Positions 518 through 24,362 of a stretch of DNA of 40,389 bases are shown one piece after another. The stretch lies in contig JAAUQQ010000003.1 in the NCBI GenBank assembly GCA_012032745.1, forward strand, positions 1 through 40,389. The letters run 5' to 3'. The DNA is from Synechococcales cyanobacterium RM1_1_8. Lineage in GTDB: Bacteria > Cyanobacteriota > Cyanobacteriia > PCC-9006 > JAAUQQ01. Both the position numbers and the translations under genes were made by a program. The first letter of the stretch is position 1. Every line of letters begins with the position of its first letter. The notes beneath the pieces were generated by a model. The model did not search any database and was not told where the DNA came from. It saw nothing but the letters and a program-made list of their open reading frames with translations.

Positions 518-1654
518 TTATATACAACCTAACTTAGACGTTGCTTGGGCAAGTTCTTGCAACATGCGCGACGAAAAACCGTTGTATAGAGCTGAGCGAT
601 CCGTGAGTGAAAAAACACGAACTGGATGATTAGTAGATGGCTTCAGTACGGATAGAAACTTAGCCGTGCCGTTATGGAAAGGGCGCACTTGCGAAGCGGC
701 CTGAATAGAACGCAGCCGTGGGCTGAGGAGGTTGCCCTGTGTTACGGTCGCTTTGGAAAGCGTAAAGGTGGCCGGTTCTATCTCAGATGCAATCTGCTGG
801 CCTCGCTGGTATTCAACGATGCAGACCTGATTCGCTTTGTTCGCCGGAAAGATGCTCAGGTAATACGAATATCCCGACGCAGGCGGCTCTCCTTCCCATA
901 GGCCCAAGAAAGGAGCCGTATTAGGATTGCGAGTTTGTTGTTGTTGGTCTGTTGCCTGAAGCGCTTCGGTAAATTCTGTAGGAGAACGAGTTGCACCGAC
1001 TCCAGCAATGTTGATCCAACTTTGAATAGAATTTTCGCCCTCTTGGTTTAGCTGGCTCAGTTCAGCAGCCGTCAACAGAGGTAGCGGATCTCCACTCACG
1101 ACTCGTAAGGGCGGTTCTATCAGTGATTCCTCAGATGAGGCCACTGCTTGGCAAGAACCAGCCACAGAACGGGCAGGCTGACCAGCGCTCAGGTAGTGAA
1201 CAACTTGGATGTTTTGGGGTTGACCGCTAAGCGGGCGTAGGCTGGCATAGAGACCGTGTACGGAAGCTCGGGCGGTATAGAGGCGGCGACCATCGTTGGG
1301 CTGAGCGCGAAACGCTTCGGTGAAGGGAATTCGAGAATAGTCAGCATCCGGGGCGATCGCTTCGTAGTCGCGCAGTGAAGCATTGCTTAAAAGCGTTGTT
1401 ATGCTCCCTTTGCGATCGCGCCGCAGAATACTCACGCTAAGCGAGTTTCCAATTGGGTTAATAGGGGTTTCGGTCGCTGTTGTTTCGCCTATGATACCCG
1501 TCACCTTGTAAGTAAGGCTTGCGCCCTGGGCCAAGGAGATAGTGGCTTGGCAGCTAACTCTGTAAGGTTCGGCCCGTACTGGTATCGGCAGAGTTGCCAA
1601 AGCTATTGTTCCTAACAAGGTATAACCCAAACGCTTCATCATCCCTCTACACAT
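518..1654 (-). CDS. Exported protein of unknown function
   Basis: A 378-residue open frame. The N-terminus is a typical signal peptide: basic residues (KR) at 7-8, a hydrophobic stretch at about 10-24, and a likely cleavage site after VRA near residue 28, so the mature protein is periplasmic or secreted. The start at 1654 has a GGAG about 10 bases upstream. A second ATG pair (1642, 1639) would give MMKR or MKR and is also possible. The mature part has scattered cysteines (about C35, C168, near 278 and the penultimate C377) that could form disulfides, and a conserved-looking segment beginning FLGLWEGEPP near residue 247. I recognise no domain. It is monocistronic as far as can be seen, with an IS remnant downstream and no close partner upstream. 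Confidence 0.75.
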   Translation of the reverse strand: MCRGMMKRLGYTLLGTIALATLPIPVRAEPYRVSCQATISLAQGASLTYKVTGIIGETTATETPINPIGNSLSVSILRRDRKGSITTLLSNASLRDYEAIAPDADYSRIPFTEAFRAQPNDGRRLYTARASVHGLYASLRPLSGQPQNIQVVHYLSAGQPARSVAGSCQAVASSEESLIEPPLRVVSGDPLPLLTAAELSQLNQEGENSIQSWINIAGVGATRSPTEFTEALQATDQQQQTRNPNTAPFLGLWEGEPPASGYSYYLSIFPANKANQVCIVEYQRGQQIASEIEPATFTLSKATVTQGNLLSPRLRSIQAASQVRPFHNGTAKFLSVLKPSTNHPVRVFSLTDRSALYNGFSSRMLQELAQATSKLGCI

Positions 1655-1780
1655 GAATCGAGATCTCCAAATGAGGATAGAAGCAACGCTCGCCTGTGGT
1701 TTTCGTCAGAGCGTCGCTTTGAACTTAGCCAAATCTAATCAGTCGGAAGTATTACGTTCTGTCTGTTACCAAAATTGATA

Positions 1781-1936
1781 CTAAGACAGGCCTTGTTGCA
1801 CAAAGATGAAAACTTTTCCACAAGCCCGCCTCTGCTCAAGCTGTTGGATTGCGGCAGGCACCTCACTCAAGTGATCAAGGCGATCAAACCTAAGAGCAAT
1901 CTTTCTGTCTGAGAACAGACCTCCCCCAACGTTTAG
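1781..1936 (-). pseudogene. Duplicated 3' end of the neighbouring dehydrogenase gene
   Basis: This minus-strand stretch encodes a tail nearly identical to the end of the dehydrogenase at 2503-3486: SDRKI, then LSEVPAAIQQLEQRRACGKV, then a different last few residues and a stop at 1781. At the DNA level 1793-1936 aligns with 2512-2656 without large gaps, with most bases identical. Only the last ~45 codons are present, with no start or nucleotide-binding fold, so it is not a functional gene. It lies immediately after the stop of the DUF6326 gene (1933), so the two copies of the dehydrogenase end flank that gene as direct repeats. Confidence 0.85.
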
Positions 1937-2382
1937 GTGTGCCCAATACGAGGCCATTTCCATGCATGACGGATCACTAGCAAAAGAAGAACGACTTCTA
2001 CAACAGCGCCATACAGCAGATACATCCAAAACTCACCTGCTAAATTGAACAATGTGTAAGGAATATAAACCGCAGCCACGATTATGTTTGTCCAACGATT
2101 TACCTTGGCTGACAAGGTGACGGACAGGAAAATCATCAGCGCTGGAATTGTTGTCAAAGCCAGTCCTGTCAATAGAAAAATTTGTGTAATATCAAACACA
2201 AATACTTTTCCTGCCAGAATATTCTTTATGTAGTCCGGCTTATACAAGCCGAAATAGTCTACATAGATGTAGAAAAACATAAAACTGGCCCACAGTGCTG
2301 CAAGCTTCAGCTTCACATTTATCTTAATGTCTTCCAACGTCCTTTGTGGTGTTTTTTGTGCATTTATATCTTTCATTCTCAT
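1933..2382 (-). CDS. DUF6326-type four-helix membrane protein
   Basis: A 149-residue protein with a short charged N-terminus (TLEDIKINVKLKLAALWASFMF) and four hydrophobic helices at about residues 28-46, 65-90, 97-116 and 117-138. The opening motif and helix spacing match what I recall of the DUF6326 family of small integral membrane proteins of unknown function. Its ATG overlaps the stop of a truncated upstream frame as ATGA (2379-2382), suggesting translational coupling to a partner gene that is now mostly missing. Base composition is visibly more A/T-rich than its neighbours, and it is boxed between two copies of the dehydrogenase 3' end, so lateral acquisition is likely. The function is unknown. 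Confidence 0.75.
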   Translation of the reverse strand: MRMKDINAQKTPQRTLEDIKINVKLKLAALWASFMFFYIYVDYFGLYKPDYIKNILAGKVFVFDITQIFLLTGLALTTIPALMIFLSVTLSAKVNRWTNIIVAAVYIPYTLFNLAGEFWMYLLYGAVVEVVLLLLVIRHAWKWPRIGHT

Positions 2383-2502
2383 TTGTCTTCTACCTTTTTC
2401 GTATAGTCCATATGGGGTTTTTCATCCTGCGACATGTTTTTCCAAATTCCTCGGAACAGGTCTTCAGACCCCGTTTCCATAGGCCGCTTCCAACTACTAA
2501 GA
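2379..2502 (-). pseudogene. C-terminal remnant of a gene coupled to DUF6326
   Basis: A minus-strand frame ends in DYTKKVEDK and its stop overlaps the DUF6326 start by four bases (ATGA). The ~40 codons after the dehydrogenase stop (from about 2502 downward) read as plausible hydrophilic protein, but no start lies within them: the frame runs back into the dehydrogenase gene in a different phase. The simplest reading is that the 3' end of a DUF6326 partner gene was carried in with it and cut off. I cannot identify the parent family. Confidence 0.4.
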
Positions 2503-3486
2503 CTACTGAATTTGTTGCATAGAGATGACAACTTTTCCACAAGCCCGCCTCTGCTCAAGCTGTTGAATTGCGGCAGGCACCTCACTCAAGGGATAAATGC
2601 GATCAACCATAGGAACAATCTTTCTGTCTGACAGCAGATCTCGAACAAATGTTAGATCCTCTAGGTTGGGCTTTACGACAAAGCACTTTATCTTGCGGCG
2701 GTCGGTTTTTCTAAACCATGGGGACAAAATCATCGCTTGTACAAGACGACCCATGGAGCCACCGACTAAAACGTAGGTTCCCTGTGGCGTTAAGGCCGGA
2801 AAGTAGTCAAACACCGAGCGATAAGCTGCCGCATCCAAAATCAGGTCGTAGGGCTGGTCGGTTTGGGTGGCATCGGTTTGCGTATAGTCGATGATGTGGT
2901 CTGGATTGAGCGATCGCACCCTGTCCAGCTTAGACGTACTGCACACCGCTGTGACTTCAGCCCCCAACGCTCTAGCGATTTGCACCGCAAACGATCCGAC
3001 ACCGCTAGAGGCACCATTTACCAAAACCCTTTGCTGAGGTTGAAGCTGTCCGCAATCGCGCAGTCCATGCAGAGCAGTCAGCGCCGCCGCAGAAACCGCT
3101 GCCGCTGCCTCAAATGAAACCATGTCGGGTTTGAGCACCAGCGCAGTTGCTGGAACGCAAACGTATTCAGCAAAGGCACCAAAGCCGCATTCAGAAATAT
3201 CGCCAAACACCTCGTCGCCTGGCTGAAATTGAGTGACCTTTTCGCCCACGGCTTCGATTCGCCCAGCTACATCAAAGCCCAGCGTTTTGACTTTGGGCCG
3301 CAAGAAGCCACCAAACATAGGACGCGCGAGAAATGGATCGCCCCTCATTAAATGCCAATCGCCAGCATTCACGGCCGCCGCATGTACCCTTACCAGCACA
3401 TCCTCTCCACCGCAGATGGGCCTATTGACCTCCGCTAAGCGCAAGACGTCTGCCGCACCGTATTTGTCCTGGACAATTGCTTTCAT
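2503..3486 (-). CDS. Zinc-independent MDR oxidoreductase (quinone reductase-like)
   Basis: A 327-residue member of the medium-chain dehydrogenase/reductase superfamily, predicted to reduce quinones, enones or similar small molecules with NAD(P)H in the cytoplasm. The GroES-like N-terminal domain covers residues 1-125 (NAGDWHLMRGD at 40-50, GFDVAGRIEAVG at 70-81). The Rossmann domain carries GASSGVG at 158-164, then QIARALGA. The cysteine cluster and ligands of zinc alcohol dehydrogenases are absent, which places it with the quinone-oxidoreductase branch. The length is normal. It is divergent from a TetR regulator, with a palindromic operator between the two starts, so induction by a small electrophile is likely. 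Its 3' end is duplicated at 1781-1936. The exact substrate cannot be read from sequence. Confidence 0.88.
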   Translation of the reverse strand: MKAIVQDKYGAADVLRLAEVNRPICGGEDVLVRVHAAAVNAGDWHLMRGDPFLARPMFGGFLRPKVKTLGFDVAGRIEAVGEKVTQFQPGDEVFGDISECGFGAFAEYVCVPATALVLKPDMVSFEAAAAVSAAALTALHGLRDCGQLQPQQRVLVNGASSGVGSFAVQIARALGAEVTAVCSTSKLDRVRSLNPDHIIDYTQTDATQTDQPYDLILDAAAYRSVFDYFPALTPQGTYVLVGGSMGRLVQAMILSPWFRKTDRRKIKCFVVKPNLEDLTFVRDLLSDRKIVPMVDRIYPLSEVPAAIQQLEQRRACGKVVISMQQIQ

Positions 3487-3518
3487 CTGGTAGGCCTCTA
3501 CTTTTGCTGACCGTTTTT

Positions 3519-3553
3519 GACTTACGCCGTAAGCTTAGCATACACTGTAAGTC
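3519..3553. promoter_or_regulatory. Candidate TetR operator between divergent genes
   Basis: The interval between the dehydrogenase start (3486) and the TetR start (3636) holds a perfect palindrome CTTACG-C-CGTAAG at 3521-3533 and a wider inverted repeat GACTTAC (3519-3525) / GTAAGTC (3547-3553). CTTA/TAAG half-sites thus occur four times in 35 bases. Overlapping dyads in a divergent promoter next to a TetR gene are the usual layout of an autoregulated operator. Confidence 0.6.
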
Positions 3554-3635
3554 CGTCAAGATAGTTTTGCTCAGCGAAAACCACTGCCTGGAATTGAGCA
3601 AGGTCTATCGATGGGGGCCGACAGCAAATAGCAAC

Positions 3636-4298
3636 ATGACTAGAAAGAACGACCCAAGGACAAGATCTCGCTCTCCGCTCAGTAAAGAACGGGTCTTGCG
3701 CTGCGCTGTTCGTCTGGCTGATACAGAGGGTATCGAGGGGCTCTCGATGCGAAAGCTAGCTCAAGCGTTGGGCATCAAGGCAATGTCGCTGTACAACCAT
3801 ATAGAGAACAAGGACGATATTATCGATGGGATAGTTGACAGGGTTGTTAGCGAGATAGAAGTGCCTAGTCTGGAGGTTGACTGGAAAGTTGCGATGCGAT
3901 CGCGCGCCATCTCAGCCCACGAAGTGCTATTGCGCCACCCTTGGTCAACGATGCCGATGGTTTCTCGAATTAACGTCGGCCCTGCTATGCTGCGCTACAT
4001 AGACGCGACGCTGGGATGCTTGCTAGAAGCAGGCTTTTCGAGTGAGATGGCAGATCGTGCCTGGAATGCTCTCGATAGCCATATCTACGGATTTACGCTG
4101 CAAGAACTCAACTGTCCGGTAGAGATAGAAGCCTATGCCACGACAGCAGCCAAGTATCTACCCATGATTCCGGCAGATAAGTATCCCTACATGAATCGCC
4201 TTAGCCAACAGGTTGCCGAAGGCCAGTACGATGGAATTAATAGGTTTGAGTTTGGCCTCGACCTAATCTTAGATGGACTCGACGCTTACAGAACTTGA
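3636..4298 (+). CDS. TetR family transcriptional repressor
   Basis: A 220-residue regulator. The N-terminal helix-turn-helix lies at about residues 35-56 (LSMRKLAQALGIKAMSLYNH), preceded by a basic arm (MTRKNDPRTRSRSPLSKE). The C-terminal all-helical domain (about 75-220) resembles the TetR_C ligand-binding fold (WNALDSHIYGFTLQE near 145). The open frame extends upstream to 3477 without protein-like sequence and through the operator, so I chose ATG 3636. It is divergent from the MDR oxidoreductase and most likely represses it and itself through the palindromes at 3519-3553. The ligand is unknown. Confidence 0.85.
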   Translation: MTRKNDPRTRSRSPLSKERVLRCAVRLADTEGIEGLSMRKLAQALGIKAMSLYNHIENKDDIIDGIVDRVVSEIEVPSLEVDWKVAMRSRAISAHEVLLRHPWSTMPMVSRINVGPAMLRYIDATLGCLLEAGFSSEMADRAWNALDSHIYGFTLQELNCPVEIEAYATTAAKYLPMIPADKYPYMNRLSQQVAEGQYDGINRFEFGLDLILDGLDAYRT

Positions 4299-4456
4299 AA
4301 GGGTTGAAAGATAGACACCTTGCCGTTTTACGAACTTTCGAATTTAGTTCAGCGATCAATCAGGAGGTAGAGCCAGCCAGCCATTGAATTCTGTCCATCA
4401 GCGTTGACCACAGCTTGGGCATCATGCAGGCCGAGAATCCGGCGACGGCGTTTTAA

Positions 4457-4813: not shown

Positions 4814-4900
4814 CCCCCCTCACCCCAACCCCTCTCCCACGAGGGCTGCGATCCGGCTCCCCTTCTCCATCAAATGGAGAAGGGGTTGGGGGATGAGGTC
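4814..4900. repeat. Dispersed C/G-rich hairpin repeat, composite copy
   Basis: CCCCTCACCCCAACCCCTCTCCC (4816 on) is followed by a perfect 12 bp stem CCCCTTCTCCAT / ATGGAGAAGGGG with loop CAA (4859-4884), then TTGGGGGATGAGG. The same building blocks occur at 1-30, 31413, 33052 and 40327. It forms the junction where the upstream gene remnant ends, and lies just past the end of the convergent CsgG-like gene. Confidence 0.8.
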
Positions 4901-4937
4901 GGCTGCTGCTAGCCTCTCTGGCAACCTTTTTTTGGCC

Positions 4938-5729
4938 CTATTCCAGATCCAAAACGCTGCGCGTGCCCTCTCGGCGTTTCTCTTCCTTGGCGGCAAATTC
5001 AGCCACACAGCCATCCTTCTCCACCATGACGCAGTTCAGATAGTCAGACGCTTCTACCAAGGCCGCCCGCAGCGCCTTACCCACAGGTGCTTTCTGAGAC
5101 TTGGACTCATCGTTTCCCGTGGAGAAAATCAGAATCTGAGTGTCACGGGAGGTCGATTCAGATTCCGCCGTTGCCCGTCCTTCAATGGTTCGAGAAAAGG
5201 CCACTTCGCCCGTAGTGGAATTGACCACGCGGAGGTCGATCGCCACATAGGACTTGCGCGTTTCTCTCTTTTTGCTGCCGCCAGTCCTAAAAATACCCAG
5301 ATTAATGCCACGCCGCTCGCCGCTGCTTTCCTGGGAGACATCCTCTTCGTAGGAAGTCACCTTGCCCATGACAATATATTGAGCGCCCGTGAGCTGGCCG
5401 GTCTGGGCTCCGGTCCCCGCTCTGACCCTGCCGCCGCTGTTGAGGGCTTGCTCATCAAAGACTTGATCCAGCTTCTGGCGCTCAACGACCGTGAAATTTC
5501 CGCTGGAAGACAGCTCATTGCTGAGGGCATCGGCCAGTTCCCGAGAGGTGCCGCCTTGCCACCACCACCAGCTCGATTCGTTTTTGAACTCTGGCACCGA
5601 AATCGTGGGCTTGGATTGGCCAAATGCAGCGGGTGCGAGGCTGAGGCCCAGACCCAGCGAGAGGGCGGCTAGGGTTGCATAGCGCCCCAGGACGGTGATG
5701 GAGGTCGTGGTTGTCAGTCTAGTTTTCAT
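4938..5729 (-). CDS. CsgG/HfaB-like outer-membrane secretion protein
   Basis: A 263-residue protein with a signal peptide (hydrophobic core at about 18-33, cleavage near AFGQ at 35-38) and a CsgG-like domain: PTISVPEFKNES at 41-52, then ADALSNELSSSGNFTVVERQKLDQVFDEQ (about 66-94), GAQYIVMGKVTSYEED (about 115-130) and VAIDLRVVNSTTGEVAFSRTIEG. In the curli and holdfast systems this family forms an outer-membrane export ring. In cyanobacteria many homologues stand alone with unknown cargo. There is no lipobox cysteine at the predicted cleavage site, unlike Escherichia coli CsgG, so it may be soluble periplasmic. No curli subunit gene is adjacent. Neighbours are unrelated, so function beyond the family level is inference. 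Confidence 0.82.
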   Translation of the reverse strand: MKTRLTTTTSITVLGRYATLAALSLGLGLSLAPAAFGQSKPTISVPEFKNESSWWWWQGGTSRELADALSNELSSSGNFTVVERQKLDQVFDEQALNSGGRVRAGTGAQTGQLTGAQYIVMGKVTSYEEDVSQESSGERRGINLGIFRTGGSKKRETRKSYVAIDLRVVNSTTGEVAFSRTIEGRATAESESTSRDTQILIFSTGNDESKSQKAPVGKALRAALVEASDYLNCVMVEKDGCVAEFAAKEEKRREGTRSVLDLE

Positions 5730-6034
5730 AAAATGTCAATTCTAGTGATACACAAGCGGCGATGGATGGTTGGGTGCTACTCAGCCAAATGGGCTATGCT
5801 CAGCCGGATGCCTGAAGCTTAGCATAACTGAATTACAGCCGTTTGAGCCGCGAAACCAGGTTCAGCTCTGCTTCACATAGCCTATTCATTGCTAGGAAAG
5901 CAGGAAACAATTCAGTGCAGTACGCTCAGTCAAATTACTTACAGTATCTCAGGAGCTTCAGACGTAAAGCTTGCATAAACTTTTTATCTCCCGCGAATTG
6001 AACGGGTAACAATCTCAAACGCCCTGCAAATTCC
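5730..6034. other. Intergenic region between divergent CsgG-like and WD40 genes
   Basis: These 305 bases must hold both promoters. I see no repeat, RNA gene or convincing operator, only an A/T-rich stretch at about 5880-5960. Confidence 0.5.

Positions 6035-22278: not shown

Positions 22279-24362
<2,084 letters not shown>

Follow-up and report, generated by a model that had tools for sequence, protein, structure and literature searches.

A DUF6326 gene between two copies of a dehydrogenase 3' end in a cyanobacterial genome, most likely an ordinary recombination scar

How does a gene come to lie between two direct copies of the 3' end of its neighbour? A gene framed in this way mimics a mobile cassette, and a sequence-only reading of the DNA analysed here had proposed such a cassette, inserted in the end of a dehydrogenase gene in the manner of elements that integrate at att sites, with recombination with a homologue as the alternative. 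The DNA, referred to as the window, is a stretch of 40,389 nucleotides that makes up the entire contig C225, one of 486 in a cyanobacterial draft genome that is 87.7% complete. The evidence set out below points instead to general recombination as the means by which an operon partner was added, and among relatives the site can be seen both empty and filled, along with the decaying scar.

The repeat and the genes around it

Read on the minus strand from 4298 to 1793, the locus comprises an intact gene for a zinc-type medium-chain dehydrogenase/quinone-oxidoreductase-like protein (ADH; 2503-3486, stop codon at 2503-2505), a 120-bp spacer (2383-2502), a DUF6326 gene (1933-2382) and a 144-bp segment, copy A (1793-1936), which is fused to the DUF6326 stop codon. 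Divergent from ADH on the plus strand is tetR (3636-4298), whose product was assigned to the TetR-family regulators by a Pfam search (TetR_N and TetR_C_1) and which occupies the same place in most cyanobacterial ADH loci. The repeats thus adjoin TetR, ADH and, at 518-1654 on the minus strand, one gene of unassigned function; only DUF6326 and the spacer lie between them.

Copy A aligns without gaps and in the same orientation with copy B, which lies inside the intact ADH (codons 278-325; 2512-2655, minus strand). The identity is 86% over 144 nt (124/144), confirming the direct repeat that had been placed at 1793-1936 and 2512-2656. Its description as the last ~145 bases of ADH is right in locating it within the 3' end, but copy B stops 9 nt short of the end of the gene. 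The pair scores far above every other repeat within 8 kb, and a search of the whole genome with the repeat returned matches at copies A and B only.

The differences between the copies are unequally distributed in their effects, 19 of the 20 being non-synonymous and one synonymous. Copy B keeps the residues conserved among 16 aligned homologues and, at conserved sites, carries the base of all or nearly all outgroups. Because the differences nearly all alter an amino acid while copy B retains the conserved residues of the family, we conclude that copy A is a drifting relic; it is not translated as part of ADH. With a single synonymous difference between them, the two ends must either have been nearly the same at the time of separation or have been homogenised afterwards. 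Across the middle 61 bp of the repeat the copies differ only once (p about 1e-4). At several lineage-specific sites copies A and B agree in the window while their counterparts A' and B' agree in L148, the related locus of the Leptolyngbyaceae genome SM1_4_3. Together, these two patterns indicate gene conversion between the copies within each genome.

The spacer is non-coding. The tail of a partner gene that had been read between the copies (2379-2500) was rejected, since the L148 homologue of the spacer, 85% identical over 108 bp, has three stops in the proposed frame and tblastn against the fetched loci gave no significant relative. The spacer occurs in the window and L148 only. A search of it for the operator motif found none; two palindromes of the form CTTACNNNGTAAG lie in the tetR/ADH intergenic region at 3521-3551 (3521-3533 exact, 3539-3551 with one mismatch). 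We call them operator-like on the strength of their position and their conservation, similar pairs being present in the promoters of L148, L059, L040, L043 and L114, while the number of such matches across the whole window is at the level of chance. As the spacer has no operator, DUF6326 is probably co-expressed with ADH, as part of a transcript starting at the TetR-controlled promoter.

Empty and filled loci among relatives

In L128, a locus of genome G260, divergent tetR and ADH are followed by a homologue of the window gene 518-1654 (61% amino acid identity over 169 residues), with a single ADH 3' end and no DUF6326. The homologue likewise stands directly behind ADH in L004 and L129, where again there is a single ADH end without an intervening DUF6326, and the window gene is the ancestral downstream neighbour of ADH. 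Single ADH ends in relatives lacking DUF6326 are what the sequence-only reading had expected to see if a cassette had entered. The neighbour gene itself seems to be composite, residues 6-173 resembling L128-type proteins of ~175 amino acids and the later part resembling the gene behind ADH in L004.

When the interval between the copies was removed in silico, copy A and the DNA following it aligned with the ADH end of L128 and on through TTAGtATcAATTTT of intergenic DNA, as far as an insertion of ~100 bp in the window (1670-1770, minus strand). L128 is the closest of the empty loci, yet its DNA identity to the window is only about 65%. The continuity of copy A with the L128 ADH end and intergenic DNA identifies copy A as the original ADH end, still in place, and it follows that what was added is the ADH carrying end B together with the spacer and DUF6326. 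The ~100 bp behind copy A, which have no counterpart in L128, may be a small MITE inserted later.

The filled arrangement was also found in L148 (G246:C547), from the Leptolyngbyaceae MAG SM1_4_3, another contig of which, C672, is identical to JAAUTN010000501.1. L148 matches the window continuously from 4395 to 1910, with 90.7% identity over 2.5 kb, and the two ADH proteins are 93% identical. Near the junction there are bases common to A and A' but different from those in either intact ADH gene, which shows that the duplication arose once, before the window and L148 loci separated. An insertion occupying 4900-5841 splits copy A', whose remaining part runs from 5842 to the contig end at 5934. 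The neighbour gene was searched for in SM1_4_3 and was not found, contig C547 ending inside A'.

The inverted ends of the insertion in A', CAATACTYCGGACAGAATTAGGA, are near-perfect, and its target duplication is TTATCA. The whole resembles two MITE-like pieces (about 4900-5013 and 5605-5841) around a 208-residue gene of unassigned function, and may be a composite moved by its MITE ends. Within 1670-1770 of the window, AATACTTCCGACTGATTAG resembles the terminal repeat of this insertion and the DNA forms a strong hairpin, so that the segment is a possible relative of the L148 MITE. Behind copy A the terminal-repeat-like motif has a score of 13, where shuffled sequence reached at most 12; at the other border, near 4395, the score is only 10, which is within chance, and a composite transposon is therefore not claimed.

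Occurrence of the same junction in a genome of another family means that the event is old. The suggestion that it was either not recent or involved a copy from a donor strain is upheld in its first part; a diverged donor is not required, given the single synonymous difference. The ADH genes of the window genome's own genus are only 57-60% identical to that of the window, the remainder of the contig behaves like its genus, and third-position GC is low in the genes of 518-4298 (0.44-0.55 versus 0.65-0.75). Along with the separation of the two filled loci between families, these features suggest that the whole tetR-ADH-DUF6326 block probably entered the window lineage horizontally.

Elsewhere in the window, 258-365 encodes the InsA-type zinc-ribbon start of an IS1-like transposase (Pfam PF03811), apparently a fragment, close to the contig end. 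Exact 23-bp inverted copies of TGGGAGAGGGGTTGGGGTGAGGG are present at 1-23 and 4817-4839, and a related match in L140 makes this probably a dispersed cyanobacterial repeat. The elongation factor G frame at 22279-24054 (minus strand) begins out of frame, suggesting a frameshift or a sequencing error.

DUF6326 and its dehydrogenase and regulator partners

The DUF6326 gene encodes a predicted helical membrane protein of 149 amino acids, with helices at residues 23-47, 67-89, 92-115 and 120-142 (good confidence, pLDDT 81), that matches PF19851 at 49.4 bits against a gathering cutoff of 24 (E=7.5e-13). The gene had rightly been described as A/T-richer, its GC content being 0.398 compared with 0.571 for the window as a whole. 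Yet the GC of DUF6326 genes is 0.37-0.40 in the other cyanobacterial loci examined and 0.37-0.42 over the homologues checked, and low GC across the family means that the composition here is no mark of a foreign cassette. Comparison of the predicted fold with solved structures gave no match at E<=0.001, so that no function can be assigned from it, and DUF6326 is named in no paper of the literature searched.

Relatives were taken from 80 other genome loci. In 14 of these, an MDR-type ADH and/or its cognate TetR lies <=1.7 kb from DUF6326, and the 14 are drawn from Cyanobacteria, Deinococcota, Bacteroidota, Bacillota and one Spirochaetes MAG. Where ADH is present it is on the same strand as DUF6326, in either gene order. 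The arrangement is tetR/ADH-DUF6326 in L044 (Meiothermus) and tetR/ADH-serine hydrolase-DUF6326 in L059 (Phormidesmis). L040, L043 and L114 have tetR and DUF6326 divergent from one another, without ADH and with two tandem CTTACNNNGTAAG-like palindromes in between; in these three loci DUF6326 would be the sole target gene of the TetR regulator. None of these other loci has a second ADH 3' end. From its gene neighbourhoods, DUF6326 is a recurrent operon mate of ADH and TetR in several phyla.

In two further loci the ADH upstream of DUF6326 looks truncated or broken. In Cohnella (L113, 3518-4423), tblastn recovers only ADH residues 8-156, directly upstream; in Paenibacillus (L080, 3041-4419), it recovers the ADH in two pieces.

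The window DUF6326 gene has a history of its own. DNA homology to the tetR/DUF6326 loci spans 2397-1953, and the identity to L040, the second DUF6326 locus of SM1_4_3, is 88%, above that to the positional counterpart in L148. The window protein, moreover, is of a rare type, FGLYKPDYI / GEFWMYL[LV]YGA (GEFWMYLLYGA in the window), shared with only two of 81 homologues, L040 and L041; L148 has the common type. Being closer to L040 than to L148 and of this rare type, the gene looks recombinant, a sign of allele replacement within it.

A membrane partnership between DUF6326 and an oxidoreductase is a lead and not a result. We put forward, as a tentative and somewhat doubtful proposal, that DUF6326 serves TetR-controlled zinc-type oxidoreductases as a so far unrecognised helical membrane partner, and that it has been repeatedly shuffled beside or, at times, into ADH across phyla, the orphan end in the window being one scar of this process and the Cohnella remnant in L113 perhaps another. 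The linkage of an uncharacterised family to TetR-regulated dehydrogenases makes a functional lead that can be tested.

Origin of the orphan end and comparison with known systems

The locus is most likely a well-documented but ordinary recombination scar, the outcome of known genome reshuffling and no new mobile element. We think it reasonably probable that part of the ADH 3' end was duplicated by recombination while a tetR/ADH-spacer-DUF6326 segment was being installed in a resident tetR/ADH-neighbour locus. One exchange would have passed through homologous tetR/ADH DNA, and the conservation of tetR and ADH between the empty L128 and the filled loci provides long homology on that side. The second would have joined the DUF6326 end, with little or no homology, to a point in the resident ADH some 145 bp short of the end of that gene, either by homology-assisted illegitimate recombination or by an equivalent duplication and deletion; at the DUF6326/ADH-end junction near 1936 there is at most short similarity. 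The product would be ADH(B), spacer, DUF6326, orphan ADH end A and neighbour gene, in that order. ADH would remain intact, DUF6326 would come under the ADH promoter, and the orphan end would lose coding constraint and drift, with occasional gene conversion from copy B. The presumed incoming form, with no extra ADH end, was found in no genome. We infer the exact pathway from the product; the source of the incoming copy could be either another strain or the genome itself, the near-absence of synonymous differences counting against a diverged donor. Recombination with a homologue, the second choice of the sequence-only reading, fits these observations better than its att-site cassette.

The most serious competitor, which we hold to be rather unlikely, is a tandem duplication, either of an ADH-DUF6326 unit or just of ADH, after which most of the second ADH was deleted and copy A was left. 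An internal duplication would be expected to yield copies as closely related as A and B, the lack of synonymous differences favouring a source nearly identical to the resident, and its proposed intermediate is a full second ADH behind DUF6326. Such a gene, which had been named beforehand as the sign of simple duplication and decay in relatives, is present in none of the ADH loci inspected; L148, in another family, has the same short 3' fragment at the same junction. In L017, from a genome of the same genus, a different second ADH does follow the first (residues 1-144, 43% identity), and in other bacteria ADH either precedes or follows DUF6326. Because copy A continues into the ancestral DNA that lies before the neighbour gene, however, this model has to make the first ADH the new copy.

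A site-specific cassette with its att site in the ADH 3' end appears very improbable, even though, as with att-site elements, an insertion lies at the 3' end of a gene, the end is duplicated and relatives have the empty site. To this extent the cassette proposal holds, DUF6326 having been added at the ADH 3' end with duplication of that end, as the comparison with L128, L004 and L129 shows. Its likeness to an integrating element is unsupported: the interval is tiny, 0.7 kb, and contains no integrase, recombinase or other mobile gene; the repeat is not an exact, conserved core but 144 bp of coding sequence, the whole 3' end, with one copy decaying; and the cargo is an operon partner that elsewhere occurs free of the repeat, beside ADH (L059, L044) or beside tetR without ADH (L040, L043, L114). 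Carriage of DUF6326 by a phage or plasmid was also considered and rejected, a search of viral contigs having found no relative and a plasmid search giving only weak and partial matches to ADH and DUF6326. Misassembly of this fragmented metagenome-assembled draft, in which repeats can misjoin contigs, is scarcely credible when the independently assembled SM1_4_3 has the same junction, A and B are nowhere identical for more than 36 bp, and both flanks have matching arrangements in other genomes.

Among known systems, a diversity-generating retroelement also has a direct repeat pair of about 140 bp with one member at a gene 3' end. This candidate was rejected, as the 20 differences in the window are of all kinds and not confined to adenines, and a Pfam scan of ORFs near the repeat turned up no reverse transcriptase. 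Merodiploidy, or partial tandem duplication, similarly gives two direct copies of part of one gene; in the window, by contrast, only the last 145 bp are duplicated, and they are fixed at the same place in two families. The precedent for the geometry comes from Vibrio T6SS effector-immunity arrays and Rhs, in which homology-facilitated illegitimate recombination, a process discussed more generally for small variable segments (PMC2884548), has been proposed to insert a new module and push the old 3' end of the gene downstream (PMC5361080). The window differs from these systems in that its anchor, a metabolic dehydrogenase, is intact, the gene added to this anchor is its usual operon partner, and the donor form is unseen. 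It resembles them in the arrival of a new module behind a homologous anchor, with no integrase and with the old 3' end displaced and decaying.
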